Shown in pieces: positions 5,269-28,755 of a stretch of 28,755 nt of DNA. The DNA is from a virus. The notes under the pieces were generated by a model. It was not told the DNA's origin and did not search any database. It was given only the letters and a program-made list of their open reading frames with translations. The position numbers were made by a program, and so were the translations under genes. Within the stretch, counting starts at the first letter, position 1; the number at the start of each line of letters is the position of its first letter. The stretch covers positions 1-28,755 of IMG/VR virus record IMGVR_UViG_3300026382_000005; one strand, 5' to 3'.

Positions 5269-5541
5269 ATGTCTCCGAGCGATACGATAATACTCAAATT
5301 CTTTGACTACGGCGCCTTTGCAGTGCTGTTTTTTTACCTGTTTATGTATATGTTGCGGACCAATAAAGAGCGTGAAGAGAAGTATATCAACCTTATCCAC
5401 GAGATGGCAGACAAGATGGAACTACTGAACGATATCGCCGAAACGCTCAAGGCACTTAAACAGGACTTAGACGACCTGCACGCTAAAATTGACCGCATAG
5501 AGCGGGAGATGTGGATGAAAGGAGGGAATGACGATGAGTAA
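5269..5541 (+). CDS. BhlA/UviB-like holin
   Basis: A 90-residue protein with one N-terminal membrane helix (about residues 9-29, FDYGAFAVLFFYLFMYML) followed by NKEREEKY and a long charged coiled coil (about 38-82, KMELLNDIAETLKALKQ through DRIEREM). This short helix plus REEKY plus coiled coil is the signature of the BhlA/UviB family linked to bacteriocin release and phage lysis. It starts immediately after the previous stop, with AAAGGGGGAAAG as SD, and overlaps the amidase start, so it is co-translated with it. It would form membrane lesions that let the endolysin out. A second holin candidate lies downstream of the amidase. Confidence 0.78.
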   Translation: MSPSDTIILKFFDYGAFAVLFFYLFMYMLRTNKEREEKYINLIHEMADKMELLNDIAETLKALKQDLDDLHAKIDRIEREMWMKGGNDDE

Positions 5542-6094
5542 GGTCATCGTGTTAGACCCAGGACACGGGGGACCCGACCCCGGGGCTGTAAACAATGAGC
5601 TGGGACTAAGAGAGAAGGATATTGCCCTTAAAATCGCAAAACAGACGGCAGAATATCTCAAGGGGCTGGGCTACGATGTTATCCTCACCCGAGACAGCGA
5701 TAGGCATGTCTCTTTGCGGGAAAGGTGCGACATTGCAAACTACCACAACGCCGATGCCTTCGTGTCTATCCATTTGAACGGTGCGGATAATCCAAACGCA
5801 CATGGCTTTGAAGTGTATCACTATCCCGGCAGCACAGAGGGGAAAAGACTTGCAGAGGCTATAGCCAAGCAGATGCAACAGCTCTCTAACCTTTACGGTG
5901 GATATGACTGGCGAGGCATAAAAACTGCTGAATTTTATGTTTTGAAACATACCAAGATGCCAGCCGTCTTGGTAGAAGCAGGCTTTATCACAAGCGATAT
6001 GGACGCACGCTGGCTTATAGAGGACCATAATTATACCTATCCTGCCCTGTTTATCGCACAGGGCATAGACGACTATCTGAAAGGAGGGAAATAG
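5534..6094 (+). CDS. N-acetylmuramoyl-L-alanine amidase (endolysin)
   Basis: A 186-residue Amidase_3 family zinc enzyme that cuts the amide bond between N-acetylmuramic acid and L-Ala in peptidoglycan. Zinc ligands are visible as H11 in LDPGHGG, E27 in LREKDI and H80 in VSIHLNGA; the catalytic glutamate is E148 in AVLVEAGFI. The whole protein is just the catalytic domain, with no cell-wall-binding domain or signal peptide, so it depends on a holin for export. ATG 5534 is chosen over ATG 5528 because GGAGG at 5521-5525 is 8 nt upstream of the former and only 2 nt from the latter. It overlaps the upstream holin by 8 nt. Confidence 0.95.
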   Translation: MSKVIVLDPGHGGPDPGAVNNELGLREKDIALKIAKQTAEYLKGLGYDVILTRDSDRHVSLRERCDIANYHNADAFVSIHLNGADNPNAHGFEVYHYPGSTEGKRLAEAIAKQMQQLSNLYGGYDWRGIKTAEFYVLKHTKMPAVLVEAGFITSDMDARWLIEDHNYTYPALFIAQGIDDYLKGGK

Positions 6095-6520: not shown

Positions 6521-6548
6521 TTGACAAGGTAGGTGTATGTGTTATAAT
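6521..6548 (+). promoter_or_regulatory. Strong sigmaA-type promoter for the accessory block
   Basis: A consensus -35 TTGACA (6521-6526) and consensus -10 TATAAT (6543-6548) are separated by 16 nt. The -10 is extended by TGTG at 6538-6541. Two more TTGACA boxes lie just upstream (6496-6501 and 6512-6517). Transcription would start near 6555 and read the first accessory gene at 6613. This is one of the strongest promoter matches in the window, and no terminator separates it from the gene. Confidence 0.85.
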
Positions 6549-6612
6549 TAAATTGTGAGAGATGAAAGAGAGAAGGACGACCTCAAAATACAAACACAGG
6601 GAGGCGATGAAG

Positions 6613-6954
6613 ATGGCAAAATGGACTCGCAAAAACCCACTCGGGATACTCGCTATAGAGTGGGGCACATGGGAAGAGAAGGACGGGCAGGTTATTCTGC
6701 ACCTGCCTGCAAAGATAAAGGTTAAATGGGTAGCCCGTATCAAGGGCCTTCACCCCAAATACGGGCTGGACCGTGAGTTTGTGGACTACGAGCAGGACCG
6801 CTTCACCTATCGTGTGCCAGAAGGCACACGCTTCGTAGAGATAGCCGAGTATGGTAGGAGCAGATATCTGCTTGCTCTTACCGATGATGGCAAAGTCTGG
6901 TGGACCGAGAAGAAGTATCTGCAGGAATACTTCAGACAGATACAGGCCCTATGA
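6613..6954 (+). CDS. Accessory protein of unknown function
   Basis: A 113-residue basic protein, first gene after the promoter at 6521-6548. The frame is open from ATG 6562, but the SD-bearing leader GGGAGGCGAT at 6599-6608 places the start at ATG 6613, as in the sister genes downstream. Strong beta character, with Trp- and Tyr-rich strands (KVKWVARIKGLHPKYG, TRFVEIAEYGRSRYLLALTDDGKVWW) and a C-terminal helix (KKYLQEYFRQIQAL). No domain recognised. It sits between two strong promoters and just upstream of the large RNA, so it may be an early host-takeover or RNA-related protein; this is speculation from position. Confidence 0.6.
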   Translation: MAKWTRKNPLGILAIEWGTWEEKDGQVILHLPAKIKVKWVARIKGLHPKYGLDREFVDYEQDRFTYRVPEGTRFVEIAEYGRSRYLLALTDDGKVWWTEKKYLQEYFRQIQAL

Positions 6955-6959
6955 AGGGC

Positions 6960-6989
6960 TTGACATGAAACACATCTATGTGTTATAAT
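6960..6989 (+). promoter_or_regulatory. Strong promoter driving the large noncoding RNA
   Basis: TTGACA (6960-6965) and TATAAT (6984-6989) are 18 nt apart, with an extended -10 (TGTG at 6979-6982). Starting 6 nt after the stop of the upstream gene, it shares TTGACATG and TATGTGTTATAATTAAATTG with the promoter region at 6512-6554, which looks like a duplicated promoter cassette. Transcription should start close to 6996-6998. The region downstream has no supported gene for about 590 nt. Confidence 0.87.
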
Positions 6990-6995
6990 TAAATT

Positions 6996-7430
6996 GCAAG
7001 GGAGGGAAAGGGCAAGACACCCCGACCCTCCCAAAGGGCCTGCCTGGGACCCTGCCTGCAAGGGCAAAACCCCACGGCGAGACAGGAACGCTCACAAGCG
7101 GGAACCTTGGGAACGGCTCCCCCACCGAGCCACGGAAGGGGAGGGCAAGGAGCCAACCCATAGGGGAGAACGAGGGGCTAAGCCCTCGTGGAATCAGCCC
7201 CGAGAAGGAACCGCTTGTGAGCTGCACGAGACCGGCTGGTTGTCTACCCTGCCGGACCACGAGGGGAGGGTAGGGAAAGGCAGGCTGGCAAGAGCACGCA
7301 AGGGACATAGCACTACGACACAGACCAAGAACGAGAAAAATCGGCTGGGACGGGGACGAACGGACGCCCCTCGGTGGAGTGAATGCCACCGACCCGCTCG
7401 TGTAGGGAAAAGACCTACACGGGTAAGACC
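6996..7430 (+). ncRNA. Large structured GC-rich noncoding RNA
   Basis: About 435 nt follow a consensus promoter without any gene that has an SD or phage-like composition. G+C is 272 of 430 at 7001-7430 (63%), well above nearby genes. Many helices are exact. GGGAGGG 7000-7006 pairs with 7026-7032. A 12-bp long-range helix joins 7090-7101 (GCTCACAAGCGG) to 7211-7222. A hairpin forms ACGAGGG 7170-7176 with 7183-7189, CTACCCT 7244-7250 with 7267-7273, TCGGTGG 7371-7377 with 7386-7392, and CGTGTAGG 7399-7406 with 7414-7421. The loop 7251-7255 (GCCGG) can pair with 7232-7236, giving a possible pseudoknot; GCCTGCCT 7038-7045 matches 7278-7285. GCAAGGG occurs three times (6996, 7058, 7298). Size, phage setting and structure recall the ornate large RNAs GOLLD and ROOL, but I cannot assign a known class. 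The 3' end is uncertain. Confidence 0.8.
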
Positions 7431-7540
7431 TATCCGCACAGATATCACCTATCTATCCGCCCTCATATCCCCCTATATCCCCGTGCCACCCTCATACGGC
7501 ACTTATCCCCTGCAGATACCCCATACAGCCCGCTACCCCT
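7431..7540 (+). promoter_or_regulatory. C-rich, G-poor tail, possible Rho-utilisation site
   Basis: These 110 nt contain 50 C but only 11 G and are rich in repeated TATCCCC/TACCCC units, with one short hairpin (GTGCC 7483-7487 with GGCAC 7498-7502). Such an unstructured C-over-G bubble right after a structured RNA is what Rho-dependent terminators look like. It could instead be an unstructured RNA tail that binds a protein. No T-run terminator is visible between the RNA and the next gene at 7586. The remaining 45 nt before that gene hold only its leader. Confidence 0.45.
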
Positions 7541-7585
7541 ACAACGGCGGAACGACCTACAACTGATAAAGGGAGGCGACATGAG

Positions 7586-7897
7586 ATGAAGCGTGTAGAG
7601 GTTTATCTCCACGAGAACGATGTGCCCTTCGTGGAGATAGAGGACGGCAAAGTGTATCTTCAGGAAGGGAATACTACTTACGAGTATCGTGCGGAGGACC
7701 TTGTCTCCGCACTGGAAACCCTTATGGCAAACATTGTCGGTGGCAGTGCCAAGAGACATCTTGCCACCGAGATAGCCGAGATACTGAAGGACTGGGACTG
7801 TGTTGCAGTTGCCAGAGACAACGAGGGCGATGTGCTTGTAGCCTTCGCCGACTCCATGCCCGACGCATGGAGAGACTGGGAAGAACTGAACGGATAA
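7586..7897 (+). CDS. Small acidic accessory protein
   Basis: A 103-residue acidic protein of unknown function. It is the first gene after the large RNA, with the leader GGGAGGCGAC ahead of ATG 7586. The N-terminal part looks like a small beta sheet (RVEVYLHENDVPFVEIEDGKVYLQEG), the middle a helix (DLVSALETLMANIV) and the C-terminus a helix-strand unit (LATEIAEILKDWDCVAVARD, LVAFADSMPDAWRDW). High negative charge and small size recall DNA-mimic or inhibitor-type early phage proteins, which is only a guess. A GC hairpin follows 8 nt after the stop. Confidence 0.6.
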   Translation: MKRVEVYLHENDVPFVEIEDGKVYLQEGNTTYEYRAEDLVSALETLMANIVGGSAKRHLATEIAEILKDWDCVAVARDNEGDVLVAFADSMPDAWRDWEELNG

Positions 7898-7904
7898 GAA
7901 AAAC

Positions 7905-7925
7905 GGGGCTGGGCTATCCAGCCCC
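7905..7925 (+). repeat. Intergenic GC hairpin
   Basis: The arms GGGGCTGG (7905-7912) and CCAGCCCC (7918-7925) pair perfectly over 8 bp with a 5-nt loop. It begins 8 nt after a stop codon and ends 6 nt before the next SD leader (GGGAGGCGAT). No T-run follows. Member of the recurrent intergenic hairpin set. Confidence 0.7.
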
Positions 7926-7943
7926 TCTTCGGGAGGCGATAGA

Positions 7944-8333
7944 ATGAAAATAACCTTTATTGTGTATGCCACGCCCCGTAAGACAATCTTCCATGGGCAG
8001 TGGCGGTTTAGAAAATGGGCCAAGCATAAGGACGAGATACTTACCGCTATCGCAAACGCCACAGCACAGAAACACCATGCCGTAAAGATATATGTGGACG
8101 GCAAGGCTACAGATGCCGACCGCAAAGAGATATGGCAGGACATCTGGGATACGATAGACTACAGAAACTATTACAAGTCTACGACGGTGCGGGGCCACTA
8201 CGAGCAGGGGCACCGCAACAATGTAGTGGTGGAACGCACCGTGAAGTATATCCGCAAAAACACCGAGTATCGCAAGCCTGCAAGATATAGAAGATATTAT
8301 ACGAGTGAGTATGTAAGTAAATATACGGAGTAG
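7944..8333 (+). CDS. Basic accessory protein
   Basis: A 129-residue protein, strongly basic and rich in Tyr, Lys and Arg, particularly over the last 40 residues (RTVKYIRKNTEYRKPARYRRYYTSEY). The leader GGGAGGCGAT at 7931-7940 precedes ATG 7944. The N-terminal 60 residues suggest a compact alpha/beta fold (ITFIVYATPRKTIFHG, DEILTAIANATAQKHH, VKIYVDGK). Positive charge suggests nucleic-acid binding, and its neighbour is the large RNA two genes upstream, so RNA binding is an attractive but untested idea. The stop lies inside a 9-bp GC hairpin. Confidence 0.6.
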   Translation: MKITFIVYATPRKTIFHGQWRFRKWAKHKDEILTAIANATAQKHHAVKIYVDGKATDADRKEIWQDIWDTIDYRNYYKSTTVRGHYEQGHRNNVVVERTVKYIRKNTEYRKPARYRRYYTSEYVSKYTE

Positions 8334-8348
8334 GTAGCCCCTACTCCG
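8326..8348 (+). repeat. Intergenic GC hairpin overlapping a stop codon
   Basis: The arms CGGAGTAGG (8326-8334) and CCTACTCCG (8340-8348) pair perfectly over 9 bp with loop TAGCC. The upstream TAG stop (8331-8333) is in the left arm. The next leader, GGGAGGCGAT, starts 12 nt downstream. No T-run. Confidence 0.7.
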
Positions 8349-8374
8349 CTTAATATCACAGGGAGGCGATGAAG

Positions 8375-10166: not shown

Positions 10167-10188
10167 GGGCGGGCTATATGGCCCGCCC
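10167..10188 (+). repeat. Intergenic GC hairpin
   Basis: GGGCGGGC (10167-10174) pairs perfectly with GCCCGCCC (10181-10188) around loop TATATG, starting 6 nt after a stop codon. No T-run follows. The next leader (AAAGGAGGCGATG) starts 14 nt downstream. Confidence 0.7.
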
Positions 10189-13185: not shown

Positions 13186-13452
13186 ATGGAACAGCCCTCT
13201 GTCTTGTTTGTGCCTGCAGAGCTGTTTTTTAATGGTTTTCAGAAGGCAGCCAGTTTGTATGGTGTATTACTTGCCATGGCGGGGGAGAGCAACACCTTGG
13301 AGACCACGCATGGCGAACTGGCGAGTATGTTAGGGAAAACCAACTGGTGGATAAAACAAAGGCTAAAGGAACTCCAAGCCCACGGTTATATTGATTTAAC
13401 ATACACACCCAATGGTATTCAGATAACGCTCTTGATATATCCTCAGAGGTGA
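13186..13452 (+). CDS. Winged-helix protein, replication-associated
   Basis: An 88-residue winged-helix protein with SD TGGAGGTGAAAGG. Core residues about 20-75: ASLYGVLLAMAG...TTHGELASMLGKTNWWIKQRLKELQAHGYIDLTYTPNGIQITLLIYP, a typical wHTH with a recognition helix and beta wing. It resembles the N-terminal domain of the next gene (ASLYGLLEYLS...ELAQLLYKSRNWVRKYLRLLQELGLIEIE), so the two look like a duplicated DNA-binding module. It may help bind the origin or regulate the initiator. Confidence 0.7.
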   Translation: MEQPSVLFVPAELFFNGFQKAASLYGVLLAMAGESNTLETTHGELASMLGKTNWWIKQRLKELQAHGYIDLTYTPNGIQITLLIYPQR

Positions 13453-13457
13453 GGGGG

Positions 13458-14759
13458 ATGACTAATCATGACAAAGTGGAAAGAGGGGAGTATTGGAAAG
13501 GCTACTTTGTATTACTCCCCTACGGTAGCATTGAGCTTGCCTCGCTGTATGGTTTGCTTGAATATCTGAGCTACCAGCTGGATGAGGATGTTGAAACATC
13601 CTTGACCGAGCTCGCACAACTATTATACAAGAGCAGGAACTGGGTGCGGAAATACCTTAGGCTCTTACAGGAGCTGGGACTGATAGAGATAGAGCATATC
13701 GTTGGCAAGGGTATGAGGATAAAAGTGCACGACCTTAGCCAGCTCAAGGATAACCCATACCAAAAAAGTATGGCATACCAAAAAAGTATGGCATACCCAT
13801 TAGGTAATACCCAACAGGTATTACCTAAAAAGTATGGCATACCTGATAAGCACGACACCCATACCCAAAAAGCACGACACCCATACCCAATAGGTATGAC
13901 CCACCACGAACAAACACAGTCTCAGAGTGGAGTTGCGGACCCTAAAGAATATAAAGAAAATAAAGAACCTTTCTCTATAGAGGAAGAAGAAGGGAAAACC
14001 ACCTTGGCTCCTCACCCAGCTGAGAAAGAGGGAGAAGTTAAAATTTTAGAAAAAGCTTCACCTTCGGTGAAGGAGAAGAAAGACCCCCACCCCTCAACTT
14101 CCGCCGCACCCCCCTCCCCCACGGACGAGAACGCTGTGCCATTCTTTGACAAGCCGATTAGCGACCCTGTTAGGGAGGTGATAAAGCTCTATAACGAGAT
14201 ATTTGCCCGCCCGTTGGGTAGGCAAGAGGCTTCGTTGCGGGTAAGCCAAACGAGGAAACGACAGCTTAAACACCTACTCAAGAGTTTTACACTTGACGAC
14301 TTCAGACGGGCGTTTGAAATAGCGAGAGATAACCCTTACCTAAACGGCTCTATTCCTGATAGGAACGGCAATTATGTTAGGTTTACTCTCTCATGGTTGC
14401 TGAAATATGAGGATAGGCTTGACAAGATACTGGATGGCTACTACGACCAGTTTAAGCGTGGCTCAGCACAGCCACGGCAAGAGAGACTACGGACACCAGA
14501 GAAACCCCAGCCCAAGACCTACAAGAACTACCGAGAGCTCTACACCGACAAGTCAGAAGAAGCCAAGAAACTGCAGCGAAAACTGGAAGATGTGCTGTAT
14601 ACCCTTATCCAAGCAGGTGCTCCAGATGGTAAGGCGTTGAAATTAGCCGAGGCTATTGTGCTGAATAACGGTAAATATGACCGTCAAAAGGCGTTGTATG
14701 TCTATGACCGTGTCAAAAGTGGTATGACTTATCAAGATGCTATCAAAGATGCCGTATAA
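13458..14759 (+). CDS. Replication initiator / replisome organiser
   Basis: A 433-residue protein. ATG 13458 is chosen over GTG 13449 because GAGGTGAGGGGG precedes it. Residues about 20-95 form a winged helix (TSLTELAQLLYKSRNWVRKYLRLLQELGLIEIE). A low-complexity segment, residues about 98-145 with repeated YQKSMAY, is encoded by iteron-like DNA (13756-13900). An acidic linker follows to about residue 230, then a helical domain (about 235-335: VREVIKLYNEIFARPLG, SQTRKRQLKHLLKSFTLDDFRRAFEIARDNPYLNG, VRFTLSWLLKYEDRLDKILDG), as in phage replisome organisers that bind the origin and recruit a helicase loader. The helicase loader lies two genes downstream. This matches lambda O logic. Confidence 0.8.
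   Translation: MTNHDKVERGEYWKGYFVLLPYGSIELASLYGLLEYLSYQLDEDVETSLTELAQLLYKSRNWVRKYLRLLQELGLIEIEHIVGKGMRIKVHDLSQLKDNPYQKSMAYQKSMAYPLGNTQQVLPKKYGIPDKHDTHTQKARHPYPIGMTHHEQTQSQSGVADPKEYKENKEPFSIEEEEGKTTLAPHPAEKEGEVKILEKASPSVKEKKDPHPSTSAAPPSPTDENAVPFFDKPISDPVREVIKLYNEIFARPLGRQEASLRVSQTRKRQLKHLLKSFTLDDFRRAFEIARDNPYLNGSIPDRNGNYVRFTLSWLLKYEDRLDKILDGYYDQFKRGSAQPRQERLRTPEKPQPKTYKNYRELYTDKSEEAKKLQRKLEDVLYTLIQAGAPDGKALKLAEAIVLNNGKYDRQKALYVYDRVKSGMTYQDAIKDAV
13756..13900 (+). repeat. Iteron-type replication origin within the initiator gene
   Basis: CATACCAAAAAAGTATGG repeats exactly in tandem at 13756-13773 and 13774-13791, with a related AAAAAGTATGG copy near 13828-13838; each unit is itself an interrupted palindrome (CATAC...GTATG). 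A perfect 11-bp inverted repeat, TAGGTAATACC (13801-13811) and GGTATTACCTA (13817-13827), lies between. A 21-bp direct repeat starts at 13848 and 13870 with a 22-nt period, beginning AAGCACGACACCC. Iterons plus inverted repeats inside an initiator gene are the layout of lambda-type origins. The translated product is low complexity here, suggesting DNA-level constraint. Confidence 0.75.
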
Positions 14760-18449: not shown

Positions 18450-18480
18450 ACGGGCTACCTATACGGTGGCCCGTTTTTTA
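18450..18480 (+). terminator. Strong intrinsic terminator before terminase genes
   Basis: ACGGGCTACC (18450-18459) pairs with GGTGGCCCGT (18465-18474) over 10 bp (one G-U pair) with loop TATAC, followed by TTTTTA. This is the clearest rho-independent terminator in the window. It sits between a promoter-containing leader and the late genes. The 98 nt after it (18481-18578) are AT-rich with a repeated ACTATTAG and a RBS-bearing leader for terminase. Confidence 0.88.
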
Positions 18481-27970: not shown

Positions 27971-28755
27971 TGATAAGATACTGCAGATTATTATCCGAGC
28001 AAAGGACGAGGCAACAAAGACGCTTAAAAAAGTTGACGCTGAAATCAAACATCAAGAAAGCAAATGGGCTAAGATGTCAAAGGCCATGGCACATGCAGGA
28101 AAGACCGTGACTATTGCTTCTACGGCTATAGCAGGTGCACTTGCCTCTACATTGCCAGCGTGGGAAGAGACGAGAAAGGCACAGATAGCCTTTGAGAACA
28201 CTGTCAAACATATGCCACAGCTTGCCAAGATGAATACACAGGCATGGTATCAATGGGTAAGTGCTATGGAGATGAAGCTTGCTATAGATGATGCAGAAAT
28301 TAATCAGATGGCTTCTATGTTGGGGACATATGGTATGACAGAAGACCAGATGAAGAAGATGATACCCGTTATTGTTGACTTGTCTCGGAAATACGGCATA
28401 GACTTGGCAAGTGCAACCAAGATGGTAGGATATGCCTTACAAGGGAATACAGGAATACTTAAGCGATATGGTATTACCCTTGACCTATCAGCTGCAAAGA
28501 CGAAAGAAGGTATAGATACTAACAAGGCATATGAGCTTACACTTCAACAGCTTACACAGGCAGTAGGAGGCTATTCGCAGGCACTTGATAAGGAAGGAAT
28601 GCTTGCTACCGAACGCTTCAAGCTGGCGCTTGGCAACCTTCGTGAGAATATCGGGCAAGTAGTATACAAAGCTATAACTCCCTTGTTGGAGAAGTTATCT
28701 GACCTTGCCGTGAGGTTTAACAACATGAGCCCGACTATCTCTAAAGTTGTGGCAC
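27963..28755 (+). CDS. Tape measure protein, N-terminal part (gene continues at 1)
   Basis: ATG 27963 overlaps the upstream stop, with GAGGTGAGACGG as SD. The first 222 residues (27963-28628) are encoded before the circular join. The segment has a short charged start (MPDDKILQIIIRAKDEATKTLKKVDAEI), followed by a helical and hydrophobic stretch (TIASTAIAGALASTLPAWEETRKAQIAFENTVK), WVSAMEMKLAIDDAEINQMASMLGTYGMTEDQMKKMIPVIVDLSRKYGIDLASATKMVGYALQGNTG, and DKEGMLATERFKLALGNLRENIG. That is typical of the N-terminal PhageMin_Tail-type region of siphophage tape measure proteins. Bases 28629-28755 duplicate 1-127. Confidence 0.93.
   Translation, partial: MPDDKILQIIIRAKDEATKTLKKVDAEIKHQESKWAKMSKAMAHAGKTVTIASTAIAGALASTLPAWEETRKAQIAFENTVKHMPQLAKMNTQAWYQWVSAMEMKLAIDDAEINQMASMLGTYGMTEDQMKKMIPVIVDLSRKYGIDLASATKMVGYALQGNTGILKRYGITLDLSAAKTKEGIDTNKAYELTLQQLTQAVGGYSQALDKEGMLATERFKLALGNLRENIGQVVYKAITPLLEKLSDLAVRFNNMSPTISKVVA
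28629..28755. repeat. Terminal overlap, right copy
   Basis: Exact copy of 1-127, in the same reading frame of the tape measure gene. See the left copy; the unique genome length is 28,628 bp. Confidence 0.97.

Follow-up and report, generated by a model that had tools for sequence, protein, structure and literature searches.

A conserved structured RNA of about 430 nt behind a strong promoter in a small tailed phage

Between the lysis genes and the early genes of a small phage, a consensus promoter is followed by some 435 nt in which a first-pass annotation had seen no credible gene and had proposed a large structured noncoding RNA. What this element is, and what it may do for the phage, is addressed here. 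The DNA analysed (the window, 28,755 nucleotides) carries a 127-bp direct terminal repeat at 1-127 and 28629-28755 and thus is a complete, circularly closing phage genome with 28,628 bp of unique sequence, which confirms the size of about 28.6 kb assumed earlier.

Genomic setting and promoter

Genes for tape-measure, tail, holin, endolysin, replication, RusA, terminase, portal and capsid proteins identify the virus as a tailed phage. The RNA site is flanked by the lysis block (holin 5269-5541, endolysin 5528-6094) on one side and by the early/replication block on the other. The nearest relatives of the terminase and portal proteins belong to phages of Thermoanaerobacterium (44%) and Geobacillus (30%), and one early protein is nearest to Geobacillus-type phages (46-49%). 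Together with the high G+C content of the RNA, these relationships point to a host that is probably a thermophilic member of the Bacillota; a host search by terminase alignment in genomes returned no match. The proteins scanned included no recognisable integrase or repressor, and the window holds no tRNA or tmRNA genes. Further downstream, a 28-nt iteron-like repeat (ACCCATACC...GTATGG) occurs in five imperfect copies at 13753-13906, inside an O-like replication gene (13449-14759). GC skew drops locally at these repeats, and the region is a probable replication origin. A 129-aa early protein (7944-8333) shows weak similarity to the DrmC model of DISARM defence systems (E 0.0007), probably by chance.

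The locus is composed of the following features:

6960-6989, plus strand: sigma70-type promoter TTGACA-N18-TATAAT with extended -10 (TG), 12/12 match
6996-7425, plus strand: structured RNA ending with hairpin P14 (z -5.0 folded alone; homologues; aligned-fold z -9.9; 23 of 90 pairs compensatory)
7425-7566, plus strand: C-rich, G-poor untranslated tract, rut-like (43% C and 12% G in the window)
7586-7897, plus strand: first downstream ORF, 103 aa, no family

The consensus promoter had been annotated correctly and is kept in the relatives. The two homologues introduced below (L003, and L007, of which L039 is another cut of the same contig) carry a promoter of the same kind at the same distance from the RNA, located at 4426-4454 in L003 (TTTACA/TATAAT, 11/12) and at 9329-9357 in L039 (TTCACA/TATAAT, 11/12). 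At both of these sites the early gene upstream ends within the promoter, its stop codon being part of the -10 box (GTG TTA TAA T). The only other 12/12 promoter match in the genome is found at 6521-6548; it has the same TGTTATAAT core, precedes an ORF at 6562-6954 and has counterparts in L003 (3360-3387) and L039 (8474-8502). The 5' end of the RNA is predicted at about 6996.

The composition of the segment behind the promoter is unusual, with 62.8% G+C and 9.4% T at 6995-7440 compared to 47.4% and 21.5% in the genome, and among 400-base steps of the window 7001-7400 has the highest G+C content (0.642). Folding of 6996-7440 gave -192.9 kcal/mol (z -5.0), and none of 100 dinucleotide shuffles was as stable. 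The earlier description of about 435 nt of highly structured sequence with 63% G+C therefore holds.

Homologues and the conserved fold

The first-pass annotation had called for homologues from related phages. Two were found in IMG/VR, both of which maintain the fold: IMGVR_UViG_3300026488_000124 (L003; RNA 71% identical, E 1e-37) and IMGVR_UViG_3300037333_000166 (L007; RNA found by nhmmer, E 5.8e-54). The related contigs L005 and L006 do not span the position of the RNA, and the comparative set consists of three sequences, namely the window, L003 and L007. The RNA is present in all three contigs spanning its place, between lysis and early genes, while the small genes flanking it turn over among them. 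Several wider searches were made. No close DNA relatives were found among phage and plasmid records, and a two-part RNA pattern had no match in 84,980 genomes. A search of IMG/VR with four conserved RNA patterns gave extra matches (L008-L011, L013-L037, L040-L044), which were chance or coding as judged by profile, by reading and by covariance model. The conserved flanking proteins retrieved only the same contigs from IMG/VR, and a covariance model of the 3' domain did not match the four thermophile-phage genomes GBK2, THSA-485A, D6E and E2.

Identities among the three phages disagree between the RNA and its surroundings. Window and L003 share 89-90% DNA identity in the flanking genes and 71% in the RNA; window and L007 share 90% in the 3' domain, 83% over 7042-8264 as a whole and about 70-73% in the late genes. 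By these identities the RNA is a module exchanged between phages.

RNAalifold was applied to a plain MAFFT alignment of the three sequences, and the aligned-fold energy was 9.9 SD below that of column-shuffled alignments. The copies folded singly share helices which the sequence alignment partly misplaces. For this reason 15 helices comprising 90 pairs were drawn by hand, and each strand was checked in the three sequences. Double-sided compensatory changes were seen in 23 of the 90 pairs and one-sided changes in 4, while 58 pairs were invariant and 7 had a mismatch in one copy; since the helices were picked by eye for agreement these counts lean towards structure, which does not apply to the column-shuffle test. 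Compensatory change occurs in 11 of the 15 helices. The helices and domains referred to below are:

7000-7032, plus strand: P0, 5' nested G-rich/C-rich hairpin, in the MFE folds of window and L003, weak in L007
7041-7079, plus strand: P1, 7041-7048 (UGCCUGGG) with 7071-7074 and 7076-7079 (CCCA, bulged C, GGCG)
7053-7057/7062-7066, plus strand: P1c, GNRA-capped hairpin within P1, loop GCAA
7075-7091, plus strand: invariant stretch CGGCGAGACAGGAACGC leading from P1 into P2, identical in all three copies
7090-7222, plus strand: P2 domain, long helix 7090-7101/7211-7222 enclosing P3, P4, P6 and P7
7108-7111/7157-7160 and 7115-7120/7149-7154, plus strand: P3 and P4, inside P2
7163-7166/7198-7201 and 7170-7176/7183-7189, plus strand: P6 and P7, inside P2
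7226-7290, plus strand: variable subdomain, 40-43% identity to the homologues, not alignable
7243-7248/7269-7274, plus strand: P10, kept, 3 compensatory pairs
7302-7395, plus strand: 3' domain, GGG 7302-7304 and CCC 7393-7395 closing inner helices
7308-7311/7344-7347, 7352-7358/7365-7370 (P12) and 7371-7377/7386-7392 (P13, loop AGUGAAUG), plus strand: inner helices of the 3' domain
7396-7424, plus strand: P14, 11-bp terminal hairpin, loop GAAAAGA, 3 compensatory pairs

Counterparts of P1 are UGCCUGGA/UCCA-C-GGCG in L003 and CGCCUGAG/CUCA-C-GGCG in L007, with 2 compensatory pairs; P1b reads UGGG/CCCA, UGGA/UCCA and UGAG/CUCA across the copies. P1c of L007 has a GAAA loop and 2 compensatory pairs. 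P2, P3, P4, P6 and P7 are present in all three sequences, each with at least one compensatory change, as illustrated by P7 (ACGAGGG/CCCUCGU vs ACGGAGC/GCUCCGU). The 12-bp long-range helix of the first-pass annotation, our P2, is exact in the window and is kept in L003 and L007 with tandem G.A replacing two pairs. Similar exchanges are seen in P13 (UCGGUGG/CCACCGA vs UAUCGGG/CCCGAUA) and, within the variable subdomain, in P10 (UCUACC/GGUAGG vs GAUAGC/ACUAUC), and a three-way junction (P8/P9) of this subdomain is found only in L003 and L007. For the 3' domain together with P14 a test that needs no hand alignment gave 98.9% of cells paired and 7 double-change pairs; 2 of 500 shuffles were as good, and slid partners as a control yielded 0-1 double changes vs 7. 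P1, P14 and the 3' domain contain G-U pairs that are compatible only with the plus strand. Furthermore, partly unpaired stretches (CGGCGAGACAGGAACG, ACGAACGGACG, the loop GUGAAUG and AAGACCUA) are invariant beyond what the helices require.

Two other pairings had been put forward earlier. The segments 7038-7045 and 7278-7285 are exact complements in the window, yet their pairing competes with the homologue-supported P1, which it would break, and it was rejected. Pairing of 7232-7236 with 7251-7255 is likewise exact in the window but lies in the variable subdomain, which cannot be aligned with the homologues, and it found no comparative support.

Coding potential was compared in all six frames. 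Mismatches are distributed about evenly over the three codon positions, codon changes are mostly non-synonymous, and indels among the copies measure 1, 2, 4, 11 and 13 nt, often not multiples of three. A 190-codon TTG frame (6994-7566, plus strand) is open in the window, while stops break every plus-strand frame in L007 and L003. On the minus strand one frame has no stop in any of the three copies and gives similar peptides; given the lack of third-position bias, we judge this openness to result from the scarcity of T in the plus strand. The earlier statement that no credible gene is present is supported, with no codon position favoured in any frame.

The conserved position, the compensatory pairs, the aligned fold and the lack of coding constraint together argue that, at the level of sequence, the element is a structured RNA of about 430 nt, conserved on the sense strand. 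A large structured noncoding RNA with a strong promoter, as first proposed, is thus seen with its structure conserved in related phages.

Known RNA families and the downstream region

The covariance search suggested by the first-pass annotation was run with all 4227 families of Rfam 15, on the window at gathering score and on all three copies with a cut-off of E 5. No meaningful match and no known family was recognised; a single chance match to a miRNA model occurred on the minus strand of the window (E ≤5). GOLLD, ROOL, OLE, HEARO, RNase P, tmRNA and intron RNAs were thus not detectable in the three copies, GOLLD being covered by the all-family scans (E ≤5). The ROOL model RF03087 gave no match to the three phages at E ≤10, in a search in which no positive control matched either, and the group II intron D1D4 element RF01998 gave none at E ≤10, while control genomes matched. 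What can be established from sequence comprises the conserved fold, strand, promoter and position of the RNA, its noncoding nature and its place outside known families.

GOLLD and ROOL form RNA cages, are often found near tRNA islands and have no known function (PMC12286853). A resemblance to them had been noted earlier, and it stands in so far as all are large, ornate RNAs of phages or prophages. ROOL is a multi-helix RNA with no known protein partner, but its model has 574 positions compared to about 430 nt here; many GOLLD members exceed 800 nt (PMC12286853). In contrast to both, the present RNA matches no covariance model and has neither tRNA genes nor a tRNA island next to it. By every test made it is not a member of GOLLD or ROOL, and any kinship would lie in the working mode. 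OLE, HEARO and other large bacterial RNAs of Rfam are alike in size class, but their covariance models match no copy.

No intrinsic terminator was found directly 3' of P14. Instead, the RNA is followed by the C-rich tract 7425-7566, which holds the most C-over-G 80- and 120-base segments of the genome and is weakly structured (z -1.6). L007 has the same C-rich composition after its RNA (12-15% G in the two tracts), and a hairpin GUGCC/GGCAC within the tract is perfectly kept between window and L007. L003 lacks the tract, and about 35 nt separate P14 from the start of the following ORF. Rho is known to load on unstructured RNA that is rich in C and poor in G. The tract resembles such a loading signal, and Rho may end the RNA there in window and L007; it is a candidate rut-like element, or a candidate binding site for a protein or RNA. 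Since an intrinsic terminator is lacking, the RNA may also form the 5' portion of an early mRNA. Hairpins are found at gene ends in the early block of all three phages (7905-7925, 8325-8349 and 10167-10188 in the window; 5910-5936, 7651-7670 and 9274-9301 in L003; 8328-8351, 9011-9033 and 10252-10272 in L039). Their T-runs serve the minus strand only, and in this they resemble terminators that would stop antisense transcription of an operon read from the plus strand.

Possible roles of the RNA

With a probability of roughly 45% we tentatively favour a conserved structured RNA that acts in trans as an early folded scaffold, somewhat like ROOL or GOLLD. The strong host-type promoter would drive the RNA early in infection, a timing that we infer from promoter type and position. 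The RNA would accumulate to a high level, adopt a compact fold of several domains (P2 domain, 3' domain, P14) and bind a host or phage partner, or its own copies, as ROOL and GOLLD do, and Rho would end the stand-alone transcript in the C-rich tract of window and L007. Consistent with this are the compensation in 11 of 15 helices and the aligned-fold z of -9.9, the invariance of partly unpaired stretches, the promoter kept in all three phages, the strand-specific G-U pairs, the persistence of the RNA among small genes that turn over, and the genome-extreme C-rich tract straight after the last hairpin in window and L007. In size and complexity the RNA is also closer to ornate RNAs than to short cis leaders such as put (about 70 nt; PMC9378689). 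Against a trans-acting scaffold stand the missing intrinsic terminator, without which the RNA is perhaps no more than the beginning of an early mRNA, the lack of the C-rich tract in L003, a genome without tRNA genes and a comparison of only three sequences. The RNA may further represent a new class, an early large ornate phage RNA with a multi-domain body that assembles, alone or with protein, and works in trans to disarm or take over the host, with the swappable subdomain 7226-7290 setting the target; this we consider conceivable, if rather doubtful.

The strongest competing reading makes the RNA a leader that acts in cis on the early operon and alters RNA polymerase for terminator read-through, like put of phage HK022. 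The put RNA measures about 70 nt and has two stem-loops; it suppresses both Rho-dependent and intrinsic termination, including at terminators at least 10 kb away (PMC9378689). Like put, the present RNA lies directly behind a strong early promoter at the head of the early genes, which here form a one-way block; a strong terminator at 18450-18474 closes this block, and no further plus-strand promoter of at least 11/12 lies within it. The missing terminator and the rut-like tract after the RNA in the window would also fit, as would a bidirectional 14-bp intrinsic terminator at 5216-5246 in L003, located one ORF after the RNA with no good promoter behind, so that the early genes downstream would need read-through. 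Nevertheless, weaker or other promoters are possible in the early block, and the window has few plus-strand terminators before 18450, which leaves hardly any need for antitermination. A put-type element binds RNA polymerase with two stem-loops; the RNA studied here differs in size and fold, being six times as long and, with 15 helices, far more complex. We regard such a leader as unlikely.

A special form of the trans-acting scaffold would be an early decoy or inhibitor of host defence or of the host RNA machinery, whose allele-like swapping reflects an arms race. Its position behind a strong promoter heading the early block and its mosaic history speak for this, in particular the divergence of the RNA between otherwise similar flanks of window and L003, the replaced subdomain 7226-7290 and the 3' domain shared with L007 beyond the similarity of the late genes. 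Mosaicism is general in phages, though, no known RNA was matched in Rfam, and the neighbouring early proteins have no convincing match to a defence or counter-defence family, which makes a decoy improbable.

A regulatory 5' UTR (riboswitch-like or attenuator) of the adjacent ORF appears very unlikely: the RNA does precede a short ORF in all three phages, but the ORF differs (7586-7897 in the window and, with 91% aa identity, in L007; another one in L003, where the former has no match), about 160 nt separate it from the RNA in the window, and no switching hairpin was seen at the ribosome site. Protein-coding sequence misread as RNA is essentially refuted on these data for either strand, as the evenly spread mismatches, the indels and the stops outweigh a minus-strand frame and a 190-codon plus frame of the kind that T-poor sequence is likely to leave open by chance.

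The three sequences thus support a real, conserved and unclassified large phage RNA, for which a trans-acting scaffold is the function proposed. To our knowledge very few large structured phage RNAs have been described, and GOLLD and ROOL are still without a function. Should the RNA be a leader that alters RNA polymerase instead, its size would far exceed that of the known put element. As a smaller RNA, cleanly placed behind a single promoter in a 28.6-kb genome, it would make it easier to study what such RNAs contribute to a phage.
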